This document shows, piece after piece, positions 8,950 through 15,851 of a stretch of DNA of 64,000 bases. The translations under genes were made by a program, and so were the position numbers. The notes under the pieces are model-generated. The model was not told the origin of the DNA. It saw only the letters and a list, made by a program, of their open reading frames with translations, and ran no database searches. Source of the stretch: Balneolaceae bacterium (GTDB lineage Bacteria; Bacteroidota; Rhodothermia; Balneolales; Balneolaceae); the NCBI GenBank assembly GCA_007693395.1, contig REDS01000117.1, forward strand, positions 1 through 64,000, in the 5' to 3' direction. Numbering within the stretch: position 1 is the stretch's first letter; each line of letters begins with the position of its first letter.

Positions 8950-11460
8950 TTAATCATGCATCATTTTCTTATCCTCAAGTAGCTGAACCATTGCCGGCAG
9001 AAATGTAAGCGCTGTGAAAAGCGTCATCCCGATTCCCACTACGGCCATTACACCAATTGACTGCAATCCCGGATGGTTTGTAAAGAGCAAACCTGCAAAA
9101 CCCATCATTGTGGTAAATGAACCTATTGTTATGTGCTGACCTGTGCTTCTTAGCACTTCCCACATATTTTGCCTGCCTTCATCCCTAAAACGGTGAGCCA
9201 AATGAACACCATTATCGCAGCCTATTCCCAACACGGCCGGTAACACTACAAGATTATAGAAATTAAATTTCAGGCCAAAAATCAACATCACCCCAAACAA
9301 CCAAATCAGCCCTATTATCAACGGTATAAGCGCGATCATTGCCCAGCGAAGGTTCCCAAATGAGAGATAGATGAAAATAAATACAATTATAAATGTAGCC
9401 ACTACCATGTACGGGCTCTCAGCTCGCATTAACTCCAGCATGGAAGCAGCAACAATAGAGGTACTGGCTGCATGATAAACACGGCCATTTGAAAGCACTA
9501 TTTCCGATATCTCATCTTTAAATGCTATGGATCTGAGGCCATCAGATAAACTTTGGTTTGGATAGACTATCACAAAACGCCCTATTTCACCATCGCGTGT
9601 AGTAAAGCGATTTTTCAGAAAATCGGGGATGAGGTTTTCATCCAAAGGTTCGGTGGTTTGAGATCCGCGGCGAAGAATATCAAGCGTTTCGCTCTCCTGC
9701 CCAACTATAAAACTATTCTGAAGCAGGCGCCTTACCTCCGCAATATAACTGAGTTTTTCATTGGCAAGTACTTCAGTCGGCGGGAAGCGTTCTTGAAGAG
9801 CTTCAACATCGAGAATCATGGTTTCAGGGTTTGATTGCTTTCTTTCCCGTAATATTTCCAGAATCTCAAACACATCATCATCATTATCTGCAATGATGTA
9901 CGCAGGGTTTCGTCTTGAGCTCTCATCCACACCCCTCGTAAATTCCCGAAACTGTTCGAACTCTTCGAATACCGGTTCAAGGTTACTGAACTGATATTCA
10001 AACCTCAGATTCCACGAAAGGGATAAAACAATCACTGAAATCAACACACCAAAAATTACAATCATGCGAGAGAAGGGGTATCTTTGAATAACCGGTTCAA
10101 GAACAAGATCGTCCGATCGTTTAATGAGTAATATCCACCGCCAGCGATCAAAAATCACCAATAAAGCCGGCAGTATAAAGAGCATAGCAAAAAGAGCAAG
10201 AAGTATCCCTGTACCGGCAATAAACCCGAATTCTGAAAAACCTCTGAAATCTGCAAAAACAAGAATAAACAGAGCAGATGCAGTTGTTACAGCACTTACA
10301 AAAATTGCTGTTCCTGTTTTTTGATATGCCTGTAACACACTCTGTTCAACATCCTCACCGGATGCCCTGAACTCTATGTAGCGTGCATAAAAGTGAATGC
10401 CGTAATCTATACCAAGGCCGAACAAGATTACAAATAGCACAGAAGTCATTGTATTCAGCACACCGAGATATGCGTAGGTTATGCCAAAAGTCCACATCAG
10501 GCTGATCACAAGGGGTATCCCTATAATGAGAATGGGAACCGGCATACGGATAATGTGCTGAAAAAGTGAATGGCGCTGTTTGTTGCTTGCTCCTCTGCGG
10601 TAGTTTATCAGTTTTTTGATCCAGAAATAGAGCATCACCAGCAAAATTACACTGCTTATTCCAAGCGCAAAGCTGTTAAAAACATCATCCATAATAGATT
10701 CGAATTCATTAAGATGACGCTTCAGCCTGCCGCCAAACTGCACTTCCATTTCGGGATGAAATGATGCGGGATCCATTCTTTCAATAAACCTTCCGTACTC
10801 TTCGAACATATCCTCCAGGTAACGAATATCACTTTGCGACCCGGTTGGGAAGAGTGTAAGTATTACTAAAGTGCTGTCGTCGCTGGCAGGAAATTCCGGG
10901 GGTATCAAGTCATCATAACTGTCCTGAAATCGGTCTATATTTCTCTCTTCCTGCTCTTCATCATCAAAATCGTCGAAAAAATCAACGAAAAACGGGTTTG
11001 CTTCCTGTCTTGCAATTTCAATTTCATCTTCCAAAAACCCAATGATCTCCCGAAGTTCTTCGGTAGTAGCCAGGTATAGGGCATTATCTTTCAGAATTTC
11101 CGTATCCCGCCTGAACTCTGCCCGGTTAAAGAAATAGATATCCCGGCGTGGGTAGAAAAGCTTGAGACTCTCTTCGGCAAGCAGTTCAGCAAATGCAACA
11201 TTGGCTTCAAAGTCGGGCGATTGTATGGCTACCCTCATTTCAGTCTCACCGCCAACCTGTTCCTGAAGCTGTTTCAGTGCCTGCACATTGGGGTGTGTAT
11301 CCGGCAAAAGGTTTGCGATGTCTGTATCAACGGTTAGCTTAACCGCAAAACTCCCGGCAAAAATGGCGAGGGCAACAGCCACGGAAACAACCCAGAACGG
11401 ATGACGAATGTTGAACTGAACTATCGGCTGAAGGAAACTAATAATTTTATGCATGTACAA
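8950..11460 (-). CDS. MMPL/RND superfamily exporter (hydrophobe exporter-like)
   Basis: An 836-aa integral membrane protein with the two-fold RND layout: TM1, a large periplasmic loop, five TMs, then the same again. The proton-relay-like motifs in the fourth helix of each half are GLGIDYGIHFYARY and GIGCDNGVHLAHRF, as in MMPL/HpnN/'predicted exporter' proteins rather than AcrB. Substrates in this family are usually lipids or hydrophobic molecules. The acidic segment FFDDFDDEEQEE in the first loop is unusual. A second ATG (MHK) two codons after the annotated one is an equally good start. It heads an operon with recO and htrA. There is no adjacent periplasmic adaptor gene, which fits the MMPL type. 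Confidence 0.88.
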   Translation of the reverse strand: MYMHKIISFLQPIVQFNIRHPFWVVSVAVALAIFAGSFAVKLTVDTDIANLLPDTHPNVQALKQLQEQVGGETEMRVAIQSPDFEANVAFAELLAEESLKLFYPRRDIYFFNRAEFRRDTEILKDNALYLATTEELREIIGFLEDEIEIARQEANPFFVDFFDDFDDEEQEERNIDRFQDSYDDLIPPEFPASDDSTLVILTLFPTGSQSDIRYLEDMFEEYGRFIERMDPASFHPEMEVQFGGRLKRHLNEFESIMDDVFNSFALGISSVILLVMLYFWIKKLINYRRGASNKQRHSLFQHIIRMPVPILIIGIPLVISLMWTFGITYAYLGVLNTMTSVLFVILFGLGIDYGIHFYARYIEFRASGEDVEQSVLQAYQKTGTAIFVSAVTTASALFILVFADFRGFSEFGFIAGTGILLALFAMLFILPALLVIFDRWRWILLIKRSDDLVLEPVIQRYPFSRMIVIFGVLISVIVLSLSWNLRFEYQFSNLEPVFEEFEQFREFTRGVDESSRRNPAYIIADNDDDVFEILEILRERKQSNPETMILDVEALQERFPPTEVLANEKLSYIAEVRRLLQNSFIVGQESETLDILRRGSQTTEPLDENLIPDFLKNRFTTRDGEIGRFVIVYPNQSLSDGLRSIAFKDEISEIVLSNGRVYHAASTSIVAASMLELMRAESPYMVVATFIIVFIFIYLSFGNLRWAMIALIPLIIGLIWLFGVMLIFGLKFNFYNLVVLPAVLGIGCDNGVHLAHRFRDEGRQNMWEVLRSTGQHITIGSFTTMMGFAGLLFTNHPGLQSIGVMAVVGIGMTLFTALTFLPAMVQLLEDKKMMHD

Positions 11461-11655: not shown

Positions 11656-12159
11656 ATGAACATGGCAGAATCATTTCGGGGAATGAAAATAATCGGGATA
11701 ATCCTGATTATTTATGCTGCACTTGTTGCAACACACGAGGGAGAGTTTTGGCCATTCAGTATCTACCCGATGTTTTCGCAGGCTGGCAATCCGTGGACCC
11801 GGGCTATGGTGTTGGATGTAACCGATCTGCCTGATGAGATCATTTGGCAGGAACATCAACTGGATCAAAAAATTGCCCCTCCGGTACCGTTACGTTCCAT
11901 TGGCGTTGACCAGATCGACTATTCCAATTTTATATCGAAAACTGATGAGTGGACTCCTACCCGGCTGGATGCTTTACGGCAAATGCTTGGCCCCGGCAAC
12001 ATACAAGAGAGGAGCTGGATGGCAGCCAAAGTACATGGTACACTTGTTGGTGAAGATTCTGTTATGGTAACCATTCAACCCTTTTTGCTGATAACTGCAG
12101 ATTCGGTTTATACCAATCCCAATCTGCCATCTGCTCATTATCAAAAAAAGGTTCGGTGA
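11656..12159 (+). CDS. Unknown single-TM protein with W-P-x3-Y-P-x-F motif, partner of HTTM-like protein
   Basis: 167 aa. One N-terminal hydrophobic helix (about residues 11-25) is followed at once by GEFWPFSIYPMFS, then a soluble, mostly beta part. No known domain is recognised. The motif W-P-x3-[YF]-P-x-F, just outside the helix, recurs in the other small protein of this region (14159-14656, PWPAFVFPGF), and each is paired with an HTTM-like membrane protein. The stop is one base before the start of the next gene, so the two are co-transcribed and probably act together. The first ATG is used; MAESF at residue 3 is an alternative. Confidence 0.7.
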   Translation: MNMAESFRGMKIIGIILIIYAALVATHEGEFWPFSIYPMFSQAGNPWTRAMVLDVTDLPDEIIWQEHQLDQKIAPPVPLRSIGVDQIDYSNFISKTDEWTPTRLDALRQMLGPGNIQERSWMAAKVHGTLVGEDSVMVTIQPFLLITADSVYTNPNLPSAHYQKKVR

Positions 12160-12160
12160 G

Positions 12161-13051
12161 ATGACCTGGATTTCGTCCATAACACGAGGGTTGTTTGAGC
12201 CGGAACGTAACACTTCACCCGGTGAGTTATGGTTTTTTAAATTTTTCGAACTCTTTGTGGTTTGTTATACCATCTACTACGTTTGGAAATGGGGGTGGTA
12301 TACACAGCTTAGGAACGTTGAGGTGGTGCTGCCGCTGGGCCTTGCCAACTATTTGGATGTTTCACTTTTTTTTGATCACTACCTCGCCCTGATTAATGCA
12401 GCCATCATAACCCTGCTCATTACTCTTTGTTTCCTCAGAAAAGGCCCTAAATGGCTCTATATGGTTGTTTTGGTTCTTTTTCACCTTCAACATGTAATAC
12501 GCTTTTCACAGGGTGAAATACCTCACAGCCAGCACCTAATCGGTATGTCTGTTTTTTGCTTCGCAATTGGGGCGTGGTTCTTTCCCAGCCTCAAGCAGAT
12601 GCCCCGGTTTGTGATGGGGGCTATCATCTTTTTCATTGGGCTGGGTTACACGTCAGCTTTCTTCTCAAAACTGATTGGTACAGGCATAAACTGGTACGAT
12701 GGCAGGCACTTGTGGTTATGGATAAGCGAAAAAAGTATCGACATTCTTTCCCGCGAAGGTGTATACAGCCCTAACTTTTTACAACAACTGGCACTGAACA
12801 GCACTTCCATTGCCTCAGTAATTTTACTGATTGGCTGGTTTACTGAACTGATTGGTTTTACGATGTGGTGGCATAAGTTACGCCCATATACCACCACACT
12901 TCTTATCGGCATGCATTTCGGTATTACGCTTACCATGAACATTCGGTTTGATGCATTTGTGATTCAACTGATACTCGTTGGTTTTCCCTGGTATCTTCTG
13001 ATTGACAATTTGGTGAAATCGGCACCGCCATGGCTCCAAAAAATTATCTGA
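12161..13051 (+). CDS. HTTM-like (vitamin K carboxylase N-domain-like) membrane protein
   Basis: 296 aa with about seven hydrophobic helices. It resembles the HTTM domain of vitamin-K-dependent gamma-carboxylase homologues: an aromatic-rich first helix, FFSKLIGTGINW, a conserved TELIGF helix with a buried Glu, and HFGITLTMNIRFDAF followed by a short closing helix. The last two blocks align with those of the convergent 359-aa protein (HFSTMMTLNIAFLPNF). It lacks the luminal carboxylase domain, so enzymatic carboxylation is not implied. It lies 1 bp after its small partner gene. Its role is unknown; many bacterial HTTM proteins have no assigned substrate. Confidence 0.65.
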   Translation: MTWISSITRGLFEPERNTSPGELWFFKFFELFVVCYTIYYVWKWGWYTQLRNVEVVLPLGLANYLDVSLFFDHYLALINAAIITLLITLCFLRKGPKWLYMVVLVLFHLQHVIRFSQGEIPHSQHLIGMSVFCFAIGAWFFPSLKQMPRFVMGAIIFFIGLGYTSAFFSKLIGTGINWYDGRHLWLWISEKSIDILSREGVYSPNFLQQLALNSTSIASVILLIGWFTELIGFTMWWHKLRPYTTTLLIGMHFGITLTMNIRFDAFVIQLILVGFPWYLLIDNLVKSAPPWLQKII

Positions 13052-13075
13052 CACTCCGTTCATTTAGTAGTGCCA

Positions 13076-14155
13076 TTACCATTTTTTTACCCCTATAAAG
13101 AGAACAAATACAAAAGCTGCGGTTACAAGCACAAATTCGTGAAACATCAGATCAGTCTGGCTGAGAGTGATATTCCGACTGCTGAGCCACTTTAGAGGCA
13201 GAAAAATCAATAAAACCAGCCCGGAAAAAAGAATGACTGCACGTTTACCCGATTTAATACCGGTTATCCCGCTAAAGCGAACATACTGAGACCGTATGGC
13301 TGAGTAAACGTTTTCCCAATTTAAAAAAACAGCATAGGCCAGAAAGTTTGGCAGAAAAGCGATGTTAAGAGTCATCATTGTGGAGAAATGAAATACCACT
13401 GCAAATCCCACAAACAGCCGAAACCATGATGCTTTAAAGAGAGCTGCGATGAATCCTATCTCGAAAAGAATGGTGAGCCAGTCGAGCATTTCCCAGAAAA
13501 CAACGTTATTAAAACCAACAGCCCAACCAGCCAGCAGTGCCTGCCGCTCTCTGATAAAAAACTGATTGAATAAATGGCCCTGAGCGGCCTGTGTTGAGGG
13601 ATCGAGCCAGCCTCCCAATATCTTCGGGAAACCTGCAGTAAACATCATAAAAGCCACAAAAAGAGCAAGAAGTGTTAATGGCCAGCTCTCCGGGTTCCTT
13701 GTTTTCTTCTTTCGCATGGAATCAACTGAGTACGCATAACCCCAATTGCTAAATGCCATAATAATTGGCACTAACGGCACTACAATCTCATGATTCACTT
13801 TCCCGATACTATATATAAATCCCTGAAGAATCAGAATTGAAATTCCTGTTATGAGTGATGCCCACTTTGTAAAATAACCGGCCAGCATCGCGAAAAGAGA
13901 GATAACCAGAATAGTGTGAACCAGCTGGAAAAAAACCAAAGGCGGAAATCCATCAAAAATACGTAATGGCCCCGGTGATGGCGCGTAAAAATGGTTCGGG
14001 AGTGATGCAAGAAAACCAAAGTGCCCCATGCCCATACCAGGAATTAAGAACAAAAGAATGAAGAGAGAGGCGAAAATGCGAAACAGTGCAAGCCCCTCCG
14101 CTGAGACGGTAAATGAGTTAAAAATCCAGTTATCGAAACGTTGTTTAAAACTCAT
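13076..14155 (-). CDS. HTTM-domain membrane protein, paralogue of the convergent neighbour
   Basis: 359 aa, about eight or nine hydrophobic helices. The opening FTVSAEGLALFRIFASLFILLFL is the classic HTTM start (ALALFRIxxG). Later blocks TAGFPKILGGW, TILFEIGFIAALF and HFSTMMTLNIAF correspond to those of the 296-aa protein. The C-terminus extends beyond that paralogue by two further hydrophobic segments. Three bases separate it from its upstream small partner gene. It converges on the other pair with only 24 bp between stop codons and no terminator hairpin visible, so the two transcripts may overlap. Confidence 0.72.
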   Translation of the reverse strand: MSFKQRFDNWIFNSFTVSAEGLALFRIFASLFILLFLIPGMGMGHFGFLASLPNHFYAPSPGPLRIFDGFPPLVFFQLVHTILVISLFAMLAGYFTKWASLITGISILILQGFIYSIGKVNHEIVVPLVPIIMAFSNWGYAYSVDSMRKKKTRNPESWPLTLLALFVAFMMFTAGFPKILGGWLDPSTQAAQGHLFNQFFIRERQALLAGWAVGFNNVVFWEMLDWLTILFEIGFIAALFKASWFRLFVGFAVVFHFSTMMTLNIAFLPNFLAYAVFLNWENVYSAIRSQYVRFSGITGIKSGKRAVILFSGLVLLIFLPLKWLSSRNITLSQTDLMFHEFVLVTAAFVFVLFIGVKKW

Positions 14156-14158
14156 ATA

Positions 14159-14656
14159 TCAGAATTGAAGGCTAATCCGGCCGGTTTCCAAGGCCATATC
14201 GAGAACGGTTCCCTCTTCGGTTTGGCGATAGTATTCCGTCAGTTCTATAATGTGCATCGTATTTGGAGAAAAACCGGCAATCTCTGTTGCTCTTATATGG
14301 AGCCATGCCCGGCCTTCATCAGAAATTTGTTGAACCGCTTCATCACCCGAAAAATGTGTTCGTATAAATCCGGGAATTTGTGAGAGTGGTATTTCCGGGA
14401 AAAATTCCTGAGGAGACATATCGAGCGAGCGCTGACGATGCAGGGTTTCTACATCAATTACCGTTCTTTTTATTTCAAATCCGTCATCATAAACATGCAC
14501 ACTTTTAAAACCGGGAAATACAAATGCCGGCCACGGTTCAGCATCGTAATAACCAACAATTCCAACAATTGCATACTGCAAGGGAAGGTATATAAGCGCG
14601 CAAATAAACAGAGTTCGAACGGCCTTACGGTTCATTCTATTACCGATTTTTAGCAA
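14159..14656 (-). CDS. Unknown single-TM protein with W-P-x3-F-P-x-F motif, partner of HTTM protein
   Basis: 165 aa from the ORF-track TTG; the internal ATG at 14635 (MNRKAVRTL) is the likelier start, giving 158 aa. One hydrophobic helix (LFICALIYLPLQYAIVGIVG) is followed by AEPWPAFVFPGF, the same post-helix motif as in the 167-aa protein at 11656. The remainder is soluble, with mixed strands and helices and no catalytic motif that I recognise. It is the upstream gene of the second HTTM pair. The matching size, order and motif show that the two pairs descend from one module despite low overall identity. Confidence 0.68.
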   Translation of the reverse strand: MLKIGNRMNRKAVRTLFICALIYLPLQYAIVGIVGYYDAEPWPAFVFPGFKSVHVYDDGFEIKRTVIDVETLHRQRSLDMSPQEFFPEIPLSQIPGFIRTHFSGDEAVQQISDEGRAWLHIRATEIAGFSPNTMHIIELTEYYRQTEEGTVLDMALETGRISLQF

Positions 14657-14720: not shown

Positions 14721-15851
14721 GTGCCGCTTCAAACTGATTGCATGGGCTCTGTACTGCACTACAAAACAAACTTCCTCAACAGGTCAGAAACATTTATCCA
14801 TCGGCTTGTAAGCAATCATCAAAGGTATGAACCGGCGGCACTCTGTTACAAAAAGCTTCATTTTTGTGATGGTTTACCTGTTCATGAAGTTCCGGATACT
14901 TTTTACCAAAAAACAGTCAATTCAGCAGCTTTTCATCTGAACCGTCCCCTCCCTTTCTATAAAAAAACCGTGCGGGAACAGAAACCGGATATTATTCATG
15001 CGCACTTTGGATATGATGCATACAAAATGTTTGCCATTGCCAGGGCTGAAGTAATTCCACTCGTGGTGAGCTTTTATGGCTCGGATGTTTCTCGCCTTCC
15101 CGGAGAATTCGGTTGGAAGAAACGCTACAAGAAGCTGGCACACTGCGGAGCCCGATTTATAGCTGCTTCGGATTTCATGAAGAGGCAATTAATTAGCCTT
15201 GGATTCCCATCAGAGAAAATTAGCGTAATCCATTTTGGGTTGGATTTAGAATTGCTGCCATATCAAACAAAAGCCTTCAGCAAACTGAACATTCTTATGG
15301 CTGGCAGGCTGGTTGAAAAAAAAGGATTTGAGTACGCTTTACAAGCTGTTGCTTTGTTAAAGTTGAAGGGTGTGGAGCTGCCAGTTACCCTTTTTGGAGA
15401 TGGCCCGTTGCTTTCAACCCTCAAAACGTTAGCAAAAAGGAGTGGTATTGATTCACAGATTACCTTTAAGGGATTTCAACCTGTTGAAGAGATTGTAAAC
15501 GCGCATAAAAATCACTCCCTCTTTCTGGCTCCGAGTGTTACTGCCACTGATGGCGATATGGAAGGCCTGCCAAACACTATTCTTGAAGCAATGGCGTCAG
15601 GTACACCGGTAATTGCTACAAAACATGCCGCAATTCCAGAGGCAATTACACATCAAAAATCAGGCTTTTTGGTTGATGAAAGAGATACAGAGGGGATCGC
15701 CAACACTATTTCAGAGATTATAAGGGGCAGCCATGACCTGACAAAAATTGCTGAATATGCCCGGCTTGAAATAGAAAAAAATTTCGTTATCAAAAAAATG
15801 GTGAATCAGGTTGAAGATGTTTATGACAGAGTAAAAAGAGAGTGGGTTTGA
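14721..15851 (+). CDS. Glycosyltransferase family 4
   Basis: A GT-B fold enzyme of 376 aa. The N-terminal domain starts with SETFIHRLV, typical of GT4 enzymes. The C-terminal domain carries the sugar-nucleotide site EGLPNTILEAMASGTPVIA with the family E-x7-E pair, preceded by the AGRLVEKKGFEYAL segment. It would transfer a sugar to a lipid-linked or surface glycan. The ORF-track start is a GTG at 14721; the ATG at 14742 (MGSVLHYK) fits the family better, though neither has a good Shine-Dalgarno sequence. It converges on the flippase/GT operon with 6 bp between stops. Donor and acceptor cannot be told from sequence. Confidence 0.88.
   Translation: MPLQTDCMGSVLHYKTNFLNRSETFIHRLVSNHQRYEPAALCYKKLHFCDGLPVHEVPDTFYQKTVNSAAFHLNRPLPFYKKTVREQKPDIIHAHFGYDAYKMFAIARAEVIPLVVSFYGSDVSRLPGEFGWKKRYKKLAHCGARFIAASDFMKRQLISLGFPSEKISVIHFGLDLELLPYQTKAFSKLNILMAGRLVEKKGFEYALQAVALLKLKGVELPVTLFGDGPLLSTLKTLAKRSGIDSQITFKGFQPVEEIVNAHKNHSLFLAPSVTATDGDMEGLPNTILEAMASGTPVIATKHAAIPEAITHQKSGFLVDERDTEGIANTISEIIRGSHDLTKIAEYARLEIEKNFVIKKMVNQVEDVYDRVKREWV

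Follow-up and report, generated by a model that had tools for sequence, protein, structure and literature searches.

Each of two convergent gene pairs in a Balneolaceae genome may encode a split, carboxylase-like membrane enzyme that depends on a quinol, probably menaquinol, and acts on a substrate of the cell envelope, a tentative reading to which we assign a probability of roughly 0.45. The pairs, S_A-L_A and S_B-L_B (modules A and B), lie at 11656-14656 of the window, by which we mean the whole stretch analysed (positions 1 to 64,000 of contig REDS01000117.1, assembly GCA_007693395.1), and meet tail to tail with 24 bp between them, as an earlier reading of the letters without database searches (the original prediction) had described. 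In each pair a gene for a small single-pass protein (S) precedes one for a large polytopic protein (L). The proposal draws on the strict pairing of S and L, the fold of the vitamin K-dependent carboxylase (GGCX) in the models, equivalents of GGCX residues K218, H160 and W223 in L, a topology shared by the S proteins, and natural fusions. HTTM proteins, which share the membrane fold of GGCX, are common in bacteria, and we know of none with an assigned chemistry other than the carboxylases, SdpB having a described role but no assigned reaction.

Pairing of the small and large genes

A census of 396 genomes of the phylum was carried out with separate profiles for S_A, L_A, S_B and L_B; matches to the large proteins were counted where strong, and three S_B matches, two of them false and one decayed, were set aside. 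The genomes with S_A were exactly those with L_A (n = 47), and the genomes with S_B exactly those with L_B (n = 18), counts that come from related genomes rather than independent events. Gene coordinates place L_A directly downstream and on the same strand for 48 of 49 S_A genes, the sole exception being a gene fragment, and L_B likewise for all 19 S_B genes. When 59 related genomes were searched, relatives of S_A were found in 35 and of S_B in 24 (the match in G001 being false), and every full S copy in the loci fetched from these searches had its matching L gene directly 3'. The original prediction that the small protein is an obligate partner in a module of two subunits is well supported by the identical genome sets, and no homologue of either small protein occurred alone in the profile census, which excludes the finding named beforehand as a refutation, namely a motif protein that mostly lacks its neighbour. 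The S_B matches in G037, G043 and G001 were rejected, their open reading frames encoding AraC-like proteins and a glycoside-hydrolase-like protein.

Fold of the large proteins and place of the small ones

Both profiles and a fold match to GGCX confirmed that the large proteins are HTTM-like. The L_B profile matched bacterial vitamin K-dependent carboxylases (E 1.1e-9) and short HTTMs (E 3.8e-9), while the L_A profile matched short HTTMs (E 2.6e-11) and, more weakly, the carboxylases (E 4.3e-4). Pfam HTTM model PF05090 matched 7 of 24 L_B homologues (best E 2.9e-11) and a fused L_B::S_A protein scored above its cut-off at 36.7 bits; it matched none of the L_A homologues, and no full-length relative in the window's genome reached the HTTM model. 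A Pfam and NCBIfam search gave no useful match for the four window proteins. A PDB sequence search with the L_A and L_B profiles found nothing and a fold search was therefore needed, for which each pair was modelled with AlphaFold2 as one read-through chain with the stop read as a residue (single chains only), the B pair being taken from the window and the A pair from a relative (L038) in which both genes are in frame. The models had predicted local distance difference test (pLDDT) values of 83 for the B pair and 89 for the A pair. The top 16 PDB matches of S_B+L_B were all GGCX (best E 2.6e-5), as were the top 12 of S_A+L_A (best E 0.017, probability 1.00), and on these models L_A and L_B have the HTTM fold, which is the fold of GGCX. 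The H-x5-T-[ML]-N-I match noticed in both large proteins at the outset is real and located inside this fold.

GGCX residue numbering was fixed from the PDB alignment. The equivalents of K218, H160 and W223 are K178, H122 and W183 in L_B and K170, H122 and W178 in L_A; the lysine and tryptophan are invariant in both proteins, and the histidine is invariant in L_B and conserved in at least 90% of L_A sequences. In GGCX, K218 is the quinol base, and roles have been described for K218, H160, W223, Y395, M401 and M402 (PMC12589487, PMC9146348). The lysine and tryptophan, but not the histidine, are also present in short HTTMs that have other partners.

The W-P-x3-[YF]-P-x-F motif by which the small proteins were originally grouped is real and conserved, with W32-P-F-S-I-Y-P-M-F40 nearly invariant across 30 S_A homologues and E33-P-W-P-A-F-V-F-P-G-F43 likewise across 24 S_B homologues. 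Both S models show the same order of elements: the N-terminal helix leads into the motif, after which come a first strand region, a pair of helices and two strands. The motif of S_A is followed by an alpha/beta domain predicted outside the membrane. The basic N-terminus suggests that the C-terminal domain of the S proteins lies outside the membrane. S_B relatives from distant classes (L138, 7109-7726; L139, 6601-7179) have a few tens of extra residues inserted in the middle of the outside domain.

Single chains of approximately 540-570 amino acids in G145, G238, G187, G340 and G284 carry an HTTM core and, after it, a helix and WP-x3-YPTF. In these fused proteins (HTTM::helix-WPFxVYPTF) the C-terminal placement is where GGCX has transmembrane helix 9 (TM9), a linker and its luminal domain, and S_A matches the C-terminus of the natural fusions by profile (E 1.2e-5). 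Other split pairs carry motif variants (EPYPALKMPSF, EPFPSPILPGF and TYPFANWSMYS), and DUF5819 proteins with W-x-[LM]-F-A-P adjoin short HTTMs. In the PDB alignment the GGCX segment after TM9 reads Y395-G-Y-S-W399-D-M401-M402, which contributes Y395, M401 and M402 to the walls of the substrate and quinone pockets (PMC12589487, PMC9146348). The natural fusions, the variant split pairs and this segment suggest that an HTTM enzyme has a detachable C-terminal part and that S is this part. The pairs resemble GGCX/VKGC and its bacterial relatives in their HTTM membrane core with equivalents of K218, H160 and W223, and resemble GGCX in the order of core, helix, surface linker and outside domain; they differ in that here a gene of its own, lying before the L gene, encodes the C-terminal part. 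A luminal propeptide-binding domain in the same chain is absent, the L proteins (296 and 359 amino acids) being all membrane core and the outside domain residing in S.

History, neighbourhood and layout of the two modules

The original prediction that one module had been duplicated and inverted at this locus was not upheld. By BLASTP, S_A and S_B are weakly similar (E 8e-4) and L_A and L_B give E 0.41; profile comparison is significant for L_A and L_B (E 1.1e-5) and marginal for S_A and S_B (E 1.4e-3 and 2.7e-3). In the tree, L_A and L_B form two fully supported clades with several families in each, and a one-clade test of L_A with L_B (approximately unbiased p-AU 0.51) neither supported nor rejected their sisterhood. 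Both pairs are co-directional, in differing gene orders, in families f6, f12 and f14, and among the tabulated linked cases the convergent orientation occurs only within the window's genus. The separate clades and the co-directional linked pairs elsewhere lead us to reject a recent local duplication, and the convergence alone is local. Modules A and B lie within 7 kb of each other in 12 genomes, four f6 genomes encode an L_B::S_A fusion that joins the two pairs, and 15 of the 18 B genomes also carry A (hypergeometric p 9e-13, without kinship correction). Based on the separate clades, the varied linked orders and this co-occurrence, A and B are, as judged from sequence, two old, different modules that have repeatedly been kept together.

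The nearest named relatives of the window's genome are Balneolaceae, among them Rhodohalobacter, and the locus is present in Rhodohalobacter sulfatireducens (L127), a culturable relative. Individual genomes depart from this layout. In another f6 genome (G203, L134, 6310-6900) the locus is decayed, with an 82-amino-acid S_B N-terminus followed by an L_A C-terminal remnant and the L_B::S_A fusion gone, and the module is lost there as a unit. G028 carries a second, diverged S_A-L_A pair (L160, 13914-15352) a few kb from a convergent A/B set, and G006 showed the B pair alone in the search made.

In most of the loci examined the A pair neighbours an MMPL exporter, often accompanied by DUF3047, which is seen in several families; the exporter, of the MMPL-family RND type, is kept divergent to S_A across families, and the DUF3047 gene often lies between or beside them. 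The B pair adjoins a glycosyltransferase and, in several families, Wzi-type genes as well. Together these neighbours suggest a substrate belonging to the cell envelope. Two other HTTM modules (G257, L246, 3062-5718; G020, L207, 932-3597) are flanked by pilin-like MGQQQLLLVILVTIIVGI genes, and in L244 and L245 pilin-like genes adjoin a pilus-assembly (GspF/PilC-like) gene. The pilin-like proteins may be substrates of those two modules, which would fit a protein substrate there.

Coordinates are collected in the table. The start of S_B is most likely the ATG at 14635, and not the listed TTG at 14656, because homologues align from that position. No terminator-like site was found in the 24-bp gap at 13052-13075, and promoter-like sites showed no excess over shuffled sequence.

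Table. Features of the two modules and their immediate context (window coordinates)
Feature	Position	Strand	Basis
S_A, small single-pass protein, 167 amino acids	11656-12159	+	open reading frame; partner gene L_A
S_A motif codons, W32-P-F-S-I-Y-P-M-F40	11749-11775	+	homologue alignment
L_A, polytopic HTTM-fold protein, 296 amino acids, partner of S_A	12161-13051	+	profile and fold match
L_A H122 codon, equivalent of GGCX H160	12524-12526	+	alignment, at least 90% conserved
L_A K170 codon, equivalent of GGCX K218 catalytic base	12668-12670	+	invariant, n = 37 sequences
Gap between L_A and L_B, convergent modules, 24 bp	13052-13075		sequence
L_B, polytopic HTTM protein, 359 amino acids, partner of S_B	13076-14155	-	profile and fold match
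L_B K178 codon, equivalent of GGCX K218	13622-13624	-	invariant, n = 29 sequences
L_B H122 codon, equivalent of GGCX H160	13790-13792	-	invariant, n = 29 sequences
S_B, small single-pass protein, 158 amino acids from ATG at 14635	14159-14635	-	listed open reading frame 14159-14656, TTG start
S_B motif codons, W35-P-A-F-V-F-P-G-F43	14507-14533	-	homologue alignment
Context, outside the module: MMPL-family RND exporter, divergent to S_A	8950-11460	-	kept beside S_A across families
Context: GT4-type glycosyltransferase, divergent to S_B	14721-15851	+	kept beside S_B in several families

Proposed mechanism, competing explanations and meaning

In the split-enzyme reading, the L subunit would be the HTTM core holding the quinol-activating site, and the S subunit would supply the parts that form the C-terminal region of GGCX: the last transmembrane helix, the membrane-surface linker and the domain outside the membrane. 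The linker of S, carrying an aromatic-x-[M/G/T]-F motif, would pack onto the active site of L, as Y395, M401 and M402 of the linker do in GGCX. The lysine would deprotonate a reduced quinone, most likely menaquinol, and the deprotonated quinol could then drive an oxidation, or a reaction of the carboxylation type, on the outer side of the inner membrane. The neighbouring MMPL exporter and glycosyltransferases may handle the substrate, which would be a lipid, glycan or protein that the cell exports, and the two modules may act on the same substrate or as one complex. A broader version, in which all four proteins form one heteromeric split carboxylase-type enzyme performing menaquinol chemistry on an exported envelope molecule, each S is a detached TM9-linker-outside domain, and DUF5819, SdpA and the S families are versions of one detachable HTTM-enzyme subunit, strikes us as doubtful.

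Several observations weigh against a split enzyme. L_A and L_B of the window both fall below the cut-off of PF05090, and pLDDT is under 50 for part or all of the S motif in both models. S_B matches the fused form less strongly than S_A does (E 5.8e-4), and the equivalence of S to the C-terminal region of GGCX is proposed from its position, the fusions and the motif, not from a profile match. GGCX K217 has no clear counterpart in the L proteins and is not conserved; the GGCX propeptide-binding domain likewise has no clear counterpart and was not recognised in the pairs, for which, unlike GGCX, no Glu-rich substrate is known. Of the 47 genomes with module A, 32 lack B, and of the 18 with module B, three (G256, G258 and G265) lack A. 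The enzymatic activity of the pairs is a prediction, and their substrate is inferred.

The same unaccompanied genomes, together with the distance between L_A and L_B in the tree, would be expected if A and B act separately and share a neighbourhood alone. This is compatible with each pair being a split enzyme; however, several families keep the pairs linked, in orders that differ, and the four L_B::S_A fusions join them, and we regard separate action as rather unlikely.

The main rival is peptide maturation. S and L could jointly mature a polypeptide that is exported, by processing or modifying it, in the manner of SdpA and SdpB acting on Bacillus SdpC, and this could be the same chemistry acting on a peptide. 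Processing of SdpC into the SDP toxin depends on both SdpA and SdpB (PMC6818787), and the pairs resemble SdpA/SdpB (TIGR04034/TIGR04033) in having two genes, one for a small protein linked to the membrane and one for a polytopic protein of the HTTM type, whose products act together; a four-gene A/B form is a difference seen here. Peptide maturation is also favoured by an HTTM protein present in linaridin bacteriocin clusters (PMC9927463), by the resemblance of the HTTM partners of DUF5819-type proteins to the SdpB model TIGR04033, below its cut-off, and by the pilin-like genes flanking two other HTTM modules in relatives. However, the SdpA and SdpB models found no match among the four proteins of the window at E up to 1 and none among the S_B and L_B homologues at E up to 5, and the neighbours resemble lipid or glycan export genes. 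No SdpC-like precursor, toxin or immunity gene was recognised among the neighbours, where short peptides were not searched systematically. We consider it improbable that these pairs mature a peptide.

Least likely, and in our judgement a poor account of the data, is a non-enzymatic membrane scaffold or lipid carrier working with the MMPL exporter, in which the conserved lysine and histidine would be structural: it would suit the exporter and DUF3047 genes beside the A pair and the missing histidine of short HTTMs with other partners, but a scaffold would not need the three GGCX active-site equivalents that are conserved together in L_A and L_B.

The small-protein design extends beyond the window locus, and DUF5819/HTTM and SdpA/SdpB seem to be arranged in the same way. 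DUF5819 (PF19136) pairs likewise have, directly upstream of a short HTTM gene, a gene for a small single-pass protein whose motif is aromatic-x-[LM]-F, and partner genes of short HTTMs in L243 and L204 match PF19136. In contrast, the motif of S_A and S_B is W-P-x3-[YF]-P-x-F, and L_A and L_B keep the GGCX histidine that short HTTMs are without; PF19136 matched neither S_A nor S_B of the window nor the S_B homologues, and S_A against DUF5819-type partners was not significant by profile (E 0.047). HTTM proteins, GGCX, SdpAB and DUF5819 are already known. The original prediction had missed that the arrangement is general and that its SdpA/SdpB part has a described role. The literature searched contained no account of the S_A or S_B family, of how strictly they pair, of the A/B form and its fusion, or of the detached-subunit reading. 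No paper linking HTTM, DUF5819 and SdpA was found in that literature, which lay mostly outside subscription journals.

If the small partners are indeed the detached last third of a carboxylase, several families of unknown function would become subunits of one enzyme class, and that class would have a testable active site of lysine, histidine and menaquinol. Predictions for structures and for mutants follow directly from the natural fusions and from the fact that S and L pair strictly one to one, and the gene neighbourhood directs the question of the substrate to the cell envelope.
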